Shown: piece by piece, positions 46,443 through 48,965 of the stretch
How positions within the stretch are numbered: position 1 is the first letter of the stretch
Layout of the letters: each line of letters starts with the position of its first letter
Source: Candidatus Bathyarchaeota archaeon
GTDB taxonomy: Archaea > Thermoproteota > Bathyarchaeia > Bathyarchaeales > Bathycorpusculaceae
Assembly: GCA_903901015.1 (NCBI GenBank)
Contig: CAIUPH010000082.1
Span: 1-52,077 of the forward strand
Length of the DNA stretch: 52,077 nt
Direction of reading: 5' to 3'
Notes under the pieces: generated by a model
Database searches by the model: none
What the model saw: the letters and a program-made list of their open reading frames with translations, nothing else
What the model was told of the DNA's origin: nothing
Position numbers and translations under genes: made by a program

Positions 46443-47321
46443 TTGAAATTTGGAATAATGACGCGGAACATGGAAGCATGGAGCTCCACACAAGTCAGAG
46501 AAGCATTAACCAGACACGGCATTCCATACGAATGCTTCACTTTTCCCAAGCTTGTTGCGCGCCTCGCGTACAAGCCTTACTTTAAAGTTAACGGTATAAG
46601 CATCCTTGACGATTTAGATGCACTCATCATCCGTCCCATCGGACGGGGGTCGCTTGAGGAACTGGTTTTCCGCATGGACATGCTCTACAAACTGGAGCGC
46701 CAAGGATTCTACATGGTGAATCCGCCCACAGCCATCGAACACTGCGTGGACAAATACGATATTTTAGCCATCCTCGAAGACCAAGGCGTGCCAGTACCAC
46801 GCACCTTAGCCACAGAGAGCGTTAACGAAGCCATAAAAGCCTTCAACGAACTCGGCGGCGACGTCGTCGTCAAACCCATCTTCGGCAGCCGCGGGCAAGG
46901 AGCCACACGCGTAAACGACATCGACATCGCCGACACCGTTTTCAAAGCCATCACCTTCCACCATGGCGTAATCTACATGCAGGAATTCGTTGAACATGGA
47001 CACTCAGACATACGCGCGTTCGTTTTAGGCGACCAAGTCATCGCATCAATGAGACGCGTAGCACAGGGCTGGAAAACAAACTATAGTCAGGGAGCCAAAC
47101 CGGCGCCAACAGAAATCAGCGATGAATTCAAAGAATTAGCCGTAAAAGCATCTCAAGCTGTGGGCTGCAAAGTTGCGGGAGTCGATATTTTGGAGGGTCC
47201 TGAAGGTCCACGAATCGTCGATGTAAACAGCCAGCCGGGTTGGAAGGGTCTGCAGATGGTTGCGAAAGTTAACATCGCCGAAGAAATAGTTAACTTCGTG
47301 TTGAAGGAACTGAAAAAATAG
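46443..47321 (+). CDS. mptN: RimK-family ATP-grasp ligase, probable tetrahydromethanopterin glutamate ligase
   Basis: A 292-residue ATP-grasp enzyme of the RimK group that adds glutamate to an acceptor. The sequence has FKVNGISILDDLDALIIRPIGRGS, PTAIEHCVDKYDILAILEDQGVPVPRT (read in pieces), DVVVKPIFGSRGQGATRV (ATP lysine and glycine loop), MQEFVEHGHSDIRAFV and VDVNSQPGWKGLQ. The closest described functions are MptN (tetrahydromethanopterin alpha-L-glutamate ligase) and CofF; the MptN name is my best guess from family resemblance. The start is TTG at 46443. It is convergent with the AIR-synthase-like gene with no gap between stops. Confidence 0.82.
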   Translation: MKFGIMTRNMEAWSSTQVREALTRHGIPYECFTFPKLVARLAYKPYFKVNGISILDDLDALIIRPIGRGSLEELVFRMDMLYKLERQGFYMVNPPTAIEHCVDKYDILAILEDQGVPVPRTLATESVNEAIKAFNELGGDVVVKPIFGSRGQGATRVNDIDIADTVFKAITFHHGVIYMQEFVEHGHSDIRAFVLGDQVIASMRRVAQGWKTNYSQGAKPAPTEISDEFKELAVKASQAVGCKVAGVDILEGPEGPRIVDVNSQPGWKGLQMVAKVNIAEEIVNFVLKELKK

Positions 47322-48320
47322 TTATTTCCCAGAAAGAATCCTTGTGTATGGGTCGTCGGCGACTTGCGGGAAAGGCGTTTCTTTTCCTTTTCTAACCAAT
47401 ATTTTTTCTTTACTTTCTGTGAATTCTCCGATGAAAGACGCGGTTAACCCAAGTTTGTTTAAAATGGCTTCGACTTTTGCTTTTGCGTCAGGCTTAACCG
47501 CAGCTAAAATCGTACCCGTTGAAGACATCGCCAAAAGCTGTTCATCGGTTAGTTTAAAGTAGCTCTGCAATGCCAAGAGTTCAGTGCTAAGTGGAAGTTT
47601 TTCCCAATCCACCCTAAACCCCATCTTCGACGCGTCAGCCAACTCGTTTAGCGCCGCCACAAACCCGCCTTCAGTGGCATCATGCATCGCGTATACGCCG
47701 CCTACCTGCGCGAGCTCAATCGCTTCGTTGACACAGCTCTGCATCGGGACTTGAGCGGCTAGCTTCTTTTGCTGGTCTGCCCCGAAGAGCATTTGCGCCA
47801 GCGCGGGGTAAGTTAACGACAGGTTCGTGAGTGTTTCTAGTCCAAGCGGCTTAGTGCATAAAATCAAGTCTCCTGCTTTGGCGTTTCCGGGCGTAATCAA
47901 TCGTTCAGGTTCCACAGTTCCATAAACTGTGCAGACCCCCAGCATGCCTGAAAGGCTGTCGTACATACCTGTGTGTCCCCGAACGATAGCAATGCCCAAT
48001 TCGCCGGCGGCGCCGCAGGTTTGCTTCATGATTTTCTGGAAAACCTCTGGTTTTGTACCTATTGGTCCAAGGAGGTTTATGGTGCAGAATTCTGGTTTAG
48101 CCCCAAACAGCGCCACATCAGAAGCGGAATAGTTGATGAGCAGCCACCCAAACCACTCCTCAGGAACCCCAGTACATGGATCCGTTGCAACCGCCACATA
48201 CTTGCCGTCTAAAAGGTGCACTCCCGCATCATACCCAATCATAGGTGGAACTATAACTCGAGCATCAGTCTTTATGCAATCCAACATTTTTTGGAGTTCT
48301 TTAGAGGCAAGTTTTCCCAA
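47322..48320 (-). CDS. AIR-synthase/HypE-ThiL superfamily protein under thiamine control
   Basis: A 332-residue member of the PurM-like ATP-binding superfamily (AIR synthase, HypE, SelD, ThiL). GYDAGVHLLDGKYVAVATDPC is the first nucleotide/metal-binding block, SASDVALFGAKPEFCTINLLGP the second, and MHDATEGGFVAALNELA the GG-containing C-terminal-domain block that is closer to HypE/PurM than to classical ThiL. Its TTG start immediately follows the thiT stop, so it is read from the same TPP-controlled message. That suggests a thiamine-related function such as thiamine-phosphate kinase, but this is inference; it is not a canonical ThiL by sequence. Confidence 0.82.
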   Translation of the reverse strand: MGKLASKELQKMLDCIKTDARVIVPPMIGYDAGVHLLDGKYVAVATDPCTGVPEEWFGWLLINYSASDVALFGAKPEFCTINLLGPIGTKPEVFQKIMKQTCGAAGELGIAIVRGHTGMYDSLSGMLGVCTVYGTVEPERLITPGNAKAGDLILCTKPLGLETLTNLSLTYPALAQMLFGADQQKKLAAQVPMQSCVNEAIELAQVGGVYAMHDATEGGFVAALNELADASKMGFRVDWEKLPLSTELLALQSYFKLTDEQLLAMSSTGTILAAVKPDAKAKVEAILNKLGLTASFIGEFTESKEKILVRKGKETPFPQVADDPYTRILSGK

Positions 48321-48869
48321 TCACATATACGCTCGCAGTACATTGCTTTTCTGCAACAGGTAAAGTATGAATCCGCTTATTACCAGTTCGGGCAATATGT
48401 AACTGCCATTGTAGACTGCTGAGTAAACAAACGGGTTTAGGGTTGGAGCTTCTATTGGTGCCCAGTAAACTACGCCTGCAATAAAATGCATAACGAACCG
48501 CCCAGAAATCCCCACAGCTGCACCTGCCACAGGATACTTTTGGAATAGCCCCGCTACGCCTAGAACGCCAAAAGCTAATGGATAATCAAGCAACAACTGC
48601 ACAGGATTAATCACATAGGGCAGCAGGCCAAGTTGAATAAATCCGTACAAAACGCCTGCAGCGATGCCTACTTTGGGTCCTCTTCTGAGGGCTAACCACA
48701 AAATCGGCACCATAGAAGCAGCAGTGATTGAGCCGCCCTGAGGCAAAGTGTATACGACAATTAAACTTAATGCGGTTGCCAACGCAACAAAAACCGCGGT
48801 TTCAGCTAAAACTTTAGGGTTTCTAAAGGAATTTGGGTTCTTATATTCACTTGTATAGGTAGTATTCAC
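48321..48869 (-). CDS. thiT: ThiT-like thiamine transporter (ECF substrate-binding protein)
   Basis: A 182-residue membrane protein with about six hydrophobic helices of the ECF S-component type. VFVALATALSLIVVYTLPQGGSITAASMVPILWLALRRG (in pieces) has the conserved GGSIT / PI-x-W features of ThiT, with aromatic residues (YWAPIEAPTL) in the binding region. ThiT binds thiamine and docks on an energising ECF module encoded elsewhere. The GTG start at 48869 is 9 nt past a TPP riboswitch whose 3' end contains GGAGGG, used as ribosome site. Confidence 0.9.
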   Translation of the reverse strand: MNTTYTSEYKNPNSFRNPKVLAETAVFVALATALSLIVVYTLPQGGSITAASMVPILWLALRRGPKVGIAAGVLYGFIQLGLLPYVINPVQLLLDYPLAFGVLGVAGLFQKYPVAGAAVGISGRFVMHFIAGVVYWAPIEAPTLNPFVYSAVYNGSYILPELVISGFILYLLQKSNVLRAYM

Positions 48870-48878
48870 TTATGTTTT

Positions 48879-48965
48879 CCCTCCGCCAGTATTACCTGGT
48901 TCAGGTTCCTAAGGGTCGACAGCAAATCAGCCGTCCTCTCAGCCAGGTCACTTTCCCAGCTCCCC
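48879..48965 (-). promoter_or_regulatory. TPP (THI-box) riboswitch
   Basis: Read leftward, the strand holds all hallmark blocks of the TPP aptamer: GGGGAGCTGG, CTGAGAGGACGG, ACCCTTAGGAACCTGAACC, GGTAATACTGGCGGAGGGAA (each block under the 20-base limit). The closing stem P1 can form from TTCTT (just 5' of GGGGAGC) and GGGAA. The 3' strand contains GGAGGG about 9 nt before the GTG of thiT, so ligand binding would hide the ribosome site. Known TPP aptamers all share these pieces; the identification is close to certain. Confidence 0.95.

Follow-up and report, generated by a model that had tools for sequence, protein, structure and literature searches.

The gene under study encodes a protein of the AIRS superfamily and lies in the window, that is, the whole 52,077-nucleotide stretch of a Candidatus Bathyarchaeota contig that was analysed here. 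The coordinates of the gene and of the features around it are given in Table 1. It is preceded by thiT with no gap, the TGA stop codon of thiT (48321–48323) adjoining the TTG start codon, and both genes stand behind one TPP riboswitch on the minus strand. This is the arrangement that the initial annotation had described, namely an AIRS-synthase-like gene that directly follows thiT and falls under the same riboswitch; the one detail it had not given is the strand. In the gene product, the Pfam domains AIRS (PF00586, 41.5 bits) and AIRS_C (PF02769, 84.2 bits) are both found above cut-off. A RimK-family ligase gene (46443–47321) is convergent and lies outside the riboswitch-thiT-AIRS operon. The genome (G000) is a draft, 97% complete and in 117 contigs.

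Table 1. Features of the riboswitch-thiT-AIRS locus, with positions counted from the first nucleotide of the window.
Feature	Position	Strand	Basis and remarks
AIRS-superfamily gene, 332 aa, TTG start (48318–48320)	47322–48320	-	ORF list, Pfam; putative thiamine kinase
thiT, S component of energy-coupling-factor (ECF) thiamine transporter	48321–48869	-	PF09515, 144.9 bits; TIGR02357, 127.4 bits (cut-off 108.45)
TPP riboswitch aptamer, RF00059	48860–48976	-	cmscan, 54.4 bits (gathering score 54.3)
GGAGGG, probable ribosome-binding site of thiT	48879–48884	-	sequence read
GxDxG loop, residues 29–33, in place of ThiL GDD; first Asp lost	48222–48236	-	alignment and ThiL profile alignment
DPC, residues 47–49; D47 aligned to ThiL D55	48174–48182	-	alignment and ThiL profile alignment
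GHTG, residues 115–118, in place of ThiL GGDT	47967–47978	-	alignment and ThiL profile alignment
HDATEGG block, residues 213–219, in place of ThiL DSSDGL	47664–47684	-	alignment and ThiL profile alignment
Codons of C49 and C196, AIRS gene	48174–48176 and 47733–47735	-	alignment

Control of the operon

Taken alone, the score of the window riboswitch is borderline (Table 1). The conserved 3' aptamer strand contains GGAGGG, and the GTG start codon of thiT (48867–48869) follows 9 nucleotides further on. Of the 12 archaeal aptamers compared, 11 have the sequence GGCGGAGGG and the remaining one (L121) has GGCGAAGGG, and at all ten archaeal riboswitch-thiT loci compared the 3' end of the aptamer overlaps the longest thiT reading frame. 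Since the GGAGGG is inside the 3' strand of the aptamer, binding of TPP would hide the ribosome-binding site, and we infer from these sequences that the archaeal riboswitch-thiT operon is controlled at the level of translation, through a masked GGAGGG.

Bacterial TPP riboswitch-thiT operons share the aptamer and the ThiT family with the window operon. The latter differs from them in being archaeal, in having the aptamer's own GGAGGG by the start codon, and in carrying the AIRS enzyme after thiT. We have also considered four bacterial loci (L220, L223, L225 and L227) in which a TPP riboswitch stands directly before a related AIRS gene. In at least three of these (L223, L225 and L227) a hairpin-like repeat followed by a run of T was seen by eye right behind the aptamer, which suggests control of transcription there.

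Conservation among related genomes

The conservation was examined in a sample of 100 genomes, consisting of the window's own and its relatives, in which matches to the gene have E values of 3e-73 or better. With the window copy counted, 55 of the genomes carry the AIRS gene (called carriers below), and an RF00059 match is found in 70. By their coordinates, 54 of the 55 copies have a same-strand TPP riboswitch upstream, at a distance of 521–1484 nucleotides; the sole copy without one, in G022, is truncated by the end of its contig. As it is kept in 54 of 55 copies, the arrangement is not due to chance, and the conserved place in a predicted operon behind the riboswitch marks the gene as probably TPP-regulated. 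The reading frame is broken in two of the 55 copies (G005 and G035), which could reflect assembly errors or decay. Among the matches listed, relatives more than 50% identical belong mostly to Candidatus Bathyarchaeota or Bathycorpusculum.

The thiT gene, counted in 70 genomes at more than 100 bits (G097, at 27.2 bits and above the cut-off, was left out), is present in 54 of the 55 carriers against 16 of the 45 non-carriers, these being related species and not independent samples. In 18 of the 54 operons riboswitch and AIRS gene are more than 1.2 kb apart, and all 18 have a gene for a KaiC-like ATPase between thiT and the AIRS gene. The one copy of this P-loop protein that was tested belongs to PF06745. 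It is found at loci L009, L010, L016, L120–L125, L127–L134 and others. The operons of the window's genus lack it.

Sequence and structure of the protein

The protein belongs to the AIRS/PurM fold superfamily, as seen from the two Pfam domains and from its structural similarity to HypE, and it reaches none of the four NCBIfam equivalogs against which it was scored. The scores are 90.5 bits for thiL (TIGR01379, cut-off 184.15), 83.5 for selD (TIGR00476, cut-off 125), 73.9 for hypE (TIGR02124, cut-off 251.6) and 23.9 for purM (TIGR00878, cut-off 236.35). An AlphaFold2 model built from an alignment of 38 orthologues has a pLDDT of 95.1, and its structural matches (VIA-align) are HypE with a Z score of 35.1, SelD with 31.4 and ThiL with 29.9. 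This means that the fold cannot tell their functions apart.

Homology to ThiL, an ATP-dependent enzyme, is detected in profile-profile comparison with an E value of 1e-31, and the two share the PurM fold and the pathway, the AaThiL structures matching the window model at Z scores of about 30. The conserved Asp residues of ThiL, which we take to be metal ligands, align to Y30/D31 (for DD), D47, D68, H116 (for Asp), D214 and E217 (for Asp). Four of them are thus kept, namely D31, D47, D68 and D214, while one is changed to Glu, one to Tyr and one to His. The ThiL motifs are altered accordingly, with GYD for GDD, GHTG for GGDT and DATEGG for D-x-SDG (TEGG for SDGL). Across the larger clade, the active-site-like residues D31, D47, D68, H116, D214 and T216 are invariant in all 111 proteins, and E217 is found in 109 of them. 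All 16 window-clade proteins have two cysteines, C49 and C196, that none of 95 relatives has; they are perhaps linked to substrate choice or to redox control.

HypE is the best structural match (21% identity) and shares the DxTxGG block with the window protein. The HypE of the genome ends in PRIC and adjoins a HypD-like gene (L002; HypD recognised by eye), whereas the window protein lacks the C-terminal Cys, which in HypE is the carbamoylated residue. None of 57 distinct orthologue C-termini ends in Cys, with one (L042) having it second to last. SelD has in common with the window protein the fold and a Gly-His-Thr motif where ThiL has GDT. Among the differences, the genome's SelD (L007) carries GCSCK near its start and the window protein CIK at residues 15–17. 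The GHT of the window protein is similar to GGHT in the SelD of the genome, and its TEGG to TRGG in the HypE. The view that the HDATEGG block is more like HypE/PurM than ThiL holds as far as the latter likeness goes, but the thiL, selD and hypE scores are similarly weak and that of purM is by far the lowest.

Phylogeny

Of the loci matched in a scan of 84,980 species genomes, the best 80 were kept. Neighbourhoods were examined for the 57 of these that lie outside the closest group (L176–L232), together with 20 more loci from the phylum. A maximum-likelihood tree was then carefully calculated from 96 rows, with ThiL as the outgroup and with PurM, SelD and HypE left out; it supersedes an earlier quick tree that included these three and in which very long branches were joined. 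In the 96-row tree the window clade has support values of 100/100 and joins a Thermococcus clade at 100/99. These two together join, at 100/100, a clade named here after its member in genome G064, which itself is supported at 98/94. ThiL is split off at 100/100, so that the protein is not a member of ThiL by the tree.

The G064-type clade, whose AIRS genes are linked or fused to ThiN, is homologous to the window clade over the full length (profile-profile E value 3e-75) and shares with it the thiamine context and the motifs GxDxG, DP, SD, GHT and HD.TE. It differs in that none of 54 members has C49 or C196, and the G064 member is only 28% identical to the window protein. The linkage also differs, being to TMP synthases in the G064-type clade and to ThiT in the window clade.

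Thiamine genes

The window genome contains eight AIRS_C stretches in seven proteins, namely PurL (two stretches), PurM, HypE, SelD, ThiL, the window protein and a paralogue whose gene neighbours one for an ECF S component. PurL was recognised by sequence, and PurM, HypE, SelD and ThiL are each above an NCBIfam cut-off. The canonical ThiL (G000:C13:3118–4071) scores 258 bits (cut-off 184), and ThiL is above cut-off in 49 of the 55 carriers. The proposal that the window gene is a non-orthologous thiamine-phosphate kinase, for which a missing canonical ThiL was to be the check, therefore finds no support, and a replacement of ThiL in this genome was rejected. The companion check, on thiamine pyrophosphokinase (TPK), did find an absence. 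TPK (PF04263) is present in none of the 100 genomes, including all 45 non-carriers, while Sulfolobus and six other controls were positive, and it is not above cut-off in any of 30 further genomes of the phylum that lack family matches at the E 1e-50 level.

The same pattern is seen for the TMP synthases. No ThiE (PF02581) is above cut-off among the 55 carriers; three non-carriers have one (G064, G066 and G092), of which only that of G064 (158.6 bits) was counted as real, and weak matches of 18–33 bits in 31 genomes were excluded from the counts. ThiN (PF10120) is found in 25 of the 100 genomes, just three of them carriers. A search for ThiM (PF02110) in 41 Bathyarchaeota-type genomes, 22 of them carriers, gave nothing above 50 bits. 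The search for a source of TMP covered the families TPK, ThiM, ThiE and ThiN. In the draft of the window genome there is no match for TPK, ThiE or ThiN, and the genome combines a thiamine importer and a TMP kinase with none of the TMP-making enzymes in the search. In the absence of TMP synthase and TPK, the TMP for ThiL should derive from imported thiamine, and a ThiL without any TMP source would need a thiamine kinase.

A new step in thiamine salvage, the other suggestion of the initial annotation, is supported by this gene content (TPK in 0/100, ThiE in 0/55 and ThiN in 3/55 genomes) and by the position behind the riboswitch in 54 of 55 copies. Two findings together were to speak against it, a canonical ThiL elsewhere in the genome and a conserved linkage of the family to non-thiamine genes; the former is present, but the latter is contradicted.

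Proposed function

Given that the AIRS gene directly follows the importer gene in a genome where no TMP-making enzyme was found, it is the natural candidate for the thiamine kinase. We therefore propose, at just short of an even chance, that it encodes an ATP-dependent kinase of the PurM/AIRS fold that converts thiamine to TMP. When TPP is scarce, the riboswitch would free the ribosome-binding site that its 3' strand contains, allowing joint translation of thiT and the AIRS gene. ThiT, with a presumed ECF module, would import thiamine, and the AIRS enzyme would phosphorylate its hydroxyethyl group, so that the product is trapped as TMP. The separate canonical ThiL of the genome would then turn TMP into TPP, which would shut the operon. 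ThiK, an APH-like thiamine kinase, and TPK would do the same job, the latter in one step to TPP, and their folds are unrelated to the AIRS fold.

The kinship to the G064-type clade, which is linked to thiamine phosphate and stands apart from ThiL, speaks for a thiamine kinase, as do the linkage to the riboswitch and thiT, the gap in the pathway, the invariant active-site-like residues and the fold. Several observations speak against it. The metal shell differs from that of ThiL in that GDD has lost its first Asp and GGDT its only one to other residues, none of seven loci of the Thermococcus relatives, the nearest ones in the tree, has a thiamine neighbour, and the missing TPK is not specific to carriers, since all 45 non-carriers also lack it. 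Another is that 12 of the 100 genomes (G014, G031, G032, G053, G068, G078, G083, G089, G092, G095, G096 and G098) have thiT and neither the AIRS gene nor ThiN, nine of them with ThiL above cut-off. In none of the 12 does an AIRS gene stand behind thiT; nine have a convergent gene there, and G089, G095 and G096 an unrelated one on the same strand. In these genomes either something else activates thiamine or the AIRS gene is dispensable.

As substitutes in these 12 genomes, TPK and ThiM were considered and rejected, TPK being absent from all 100 genomes and no real ThiM being found in the 11 of the 12 that were tested (G068 was left out). Ten of these 11 have an open frame, some 500–580 amino acids long, that matches PF02110 at 21.9–42.7 bits and is presumably NAD(P)HX-dehydratase-like and not ThiM; G078 has none.

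Alternative functions

The main alternative to a thiamine kinase is that the gene encodes a second TMP kinase (TMP to TPP), that is, a ThiL isozyme for salvage, with the TMP being imported or made from thiamine by another enzyme. This option can draw on the homology to ThiL (E value 1e-31), on thiL giving the highest NCBIfam score of the four, and on fusions of ThiN and AIRS in the sister (G064-type) clade, which could pair a TMP synthase with a TMP kinase. The sister clade bears on it in another way too. Canonical ThiL is above cut-off in 28 of 35 genomes with a G064-type gene and is present as a large fragment in one more, while neither was found in the other six (G451, G472, G473, G475, G476 and G478), so that the sister enzymes may be TMP kinases in some lineages. 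In two of the six (G451 and G472) TPK is missing as well, and a TMP kinase would seem the likelier role of the sister enzyme in these two; in the other four, which have TPK, a thiamine kinase would be superfluous. These observations count against the thiamine-kinase reading as well. For the window gene, a TMP kinase is nevertheless unlikely, because canonical ThiL coexists with the family in 49 of the 55 carriers, in those 28 sister-clade genomes and in three of four Thermococcus genomes (the fourth has fragments), the GDD and SDG motifs of ThiL are altered, and no enzyme would be left for the conversion of thiamine to TMP.

Another option is an ATP-dependent salvage enzyme that is not a simple kinase, performing a HypE/PurM-like dehydration or adenylation, the repair of damaged thiamine or the direct formation of TPP. 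The order of the closest structures by Z, with HypE and SelD ahead of ThiL, would fit such an enzyme, as would the SelD-like GHT and HypE-like TEGG motifs, the two cysteines found throughout the window clade and in none of its sisters, and the KaiC-like ATPase gene in 18 of 54 operons. With the exception of that gene, however, the neighbours suggest no partner or second substrate, the C-terminal Cys of the genome's HypE is missing, and a kinase simply closes the gap between thiamine and TMP. We consider this option rather improbable.

A ThiM-like thiazole (HET) kinase, salvaging the thiazole half of thiamine, was also considered. It would be in keeping with the sister-clade genes that lie beside ThiD and ThiE or beside ThiN, with the 23 of 35 sister-clade genomes that have no ThiM above 200 bits, and with the G064 riboswitch operon, in which ECF S, methyltransferase, AIRS and ThiE genes are combined. 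The other 12 of the 35, however, also have a real ThiM by the same threshold. In the window genome, which has neither ThiE nor ThiN, a thiazole kinase would be useless, as no TMP synthase was found to use HET phosphate; the same holds widely among the carriers, of which 52 of 55 are without ThiN and all are without ThiE above cut-off. A thiazole kinase was therefore judged very unlikely for the window gene.

Finally, that the gene is an ordinary ThiL, HypE, SelD or PurM, merely diverged, would agree with the two shared Pfam domains and the shared fold, and can be dismissed as highly improbable, since all four are separate genes in the genome, each above its NCBIfam cut-off, whereas the window gene is far below every one of these cut-offs and ThiL is split off in the tree at 100/100.

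Related clades

Of the 54 distinct members of the G064-type clade from the loci examined, 41 have a same-strand gene for ThiN, ThiE or ThiD no more than 1.5 kb away, five are fused to ThiN and eight have neither. As a control, a thiamine neighbour was found at one of 31 canonical ThiL loci, which are shorter, so that neighbours can be hidden. In the fusions, ThiN comes first in four archaea and AIRS first in one Firmicutes MAG (L186, L197, L201, L204 and L226); two of them, one for each order, were confirmed with Pfam. The hosts of the clade are methanogens, Archaeoglobus, other archaea, Dehalococcoidia, Clostridia and Spirochaetes. Nine of its loci were scanned for the riboswitch, which is present in five and directly before the AIRS gene in four. 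None of nine larger-clade proteins scanned reaches an NCBIfam equivalog with its AIRS part.

The ThiL survey of the wider clades covered 39 genomes, 35 with a G064-type gene and four of Thermococcus; a partial TPK match in G477 (34.8 bits) was not counted as TPK. The Thermococcus relatives at L178, L182, L183, L185 and L193 follow a gene for a TtuA-like PP-loop ATPase, with a weak score of 38.8 bits in L193, the only one tested.

A third branch, clade 1 (the L004/L118 type, from Bathyarchaeia), is not one side of a branch in the 96-row tree and may not be a single unit. An ECF S component of the PF07155 type adjoins 17 of its 34 members. The paralogue in the window genome (G000:C114:78200–79900; L118:4204–5797) is 34% identical to the window protein, and its start overlaps the end of a gene for a PF07155 ECF S component. 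An ECF S gene adjoins the paralogue in 14 of 20 loci (L099–L118), following a threonine-synthase-like gene in at least five of them. The ECF-S-linked paralogue is a candidate kinase for another imported vitamin.

Some further riboswitch operons were noted in the course of the analysis. A TPP riboswitch stands before a PF07155 ECF S gene and a class I methyltransferase gene at L138:1916–3186 (G012) and at L095:1292–2520 (G064), the order in G064 being riboswitch, ECF S, methyltransferase, AIRS and ThiE. A P-loop protein of 191 amino acids is encoded after ThiW at L090:4520–5095, L091:4557–5132 and L093:4142–4717, in riboswitch operons that also carry ThiC or CytX and ThiD-ThiN. In two clostridial riboswitch operons, a gene for a HAD-like phosphatase, recognised by eye, follows AIRS-ThiD-ThiE (L220:6516–7157 and L223:3352–4029). 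These two genomes have TPK and no ThiL above cut-off, and the HAD-like protein is perhaps a TMP phosphatase.

Taken more broadly, this unnamed branch of the PurM superfamily, apart from ThiL, might consist of thiamine-type kinases whose origin lies in a partnership with ECF vitamin importers and TMP synthases. The ThiT-linked members would act on thiamine, those linked or fused to ThiN or ThiE on thiamine, TMP or thiazole, and those of the PF07155-linked third branch in Bathyarchaeia on another imported vitamin. We regard this generalisation as tentative, with the balance somewhat against it.

Implications

The window gene is real, conserved and linked to thiamine, and no NCBIfam equivalog matches it. 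It adds a new branch to a known superfamily, and is neither a new fold nor a new kind of system. Searches of an open-licence library of papers gave nothing on a ThiT-linked AIRS family, which may have been published elsewhere.

Microbes that import vitamin B1 have to phosphorylate it, and in these archaea TPK, ThiM, ThiE and ThiN do not explain how this is done. A conserved, riboswitch-controlled candidate makes the missing phosphorylation step testable. The analysis also carries a warning, namely that an AIRS gene in a TPP operon is not always ThiL. If the reading as a family of kinases is true, a gap in the archaeal salvage of thiamine without TPK would be filled, and many sister-clade genes that have no NCBIfam equivalog and are easily confused with HypE or ThiL would gain a function.
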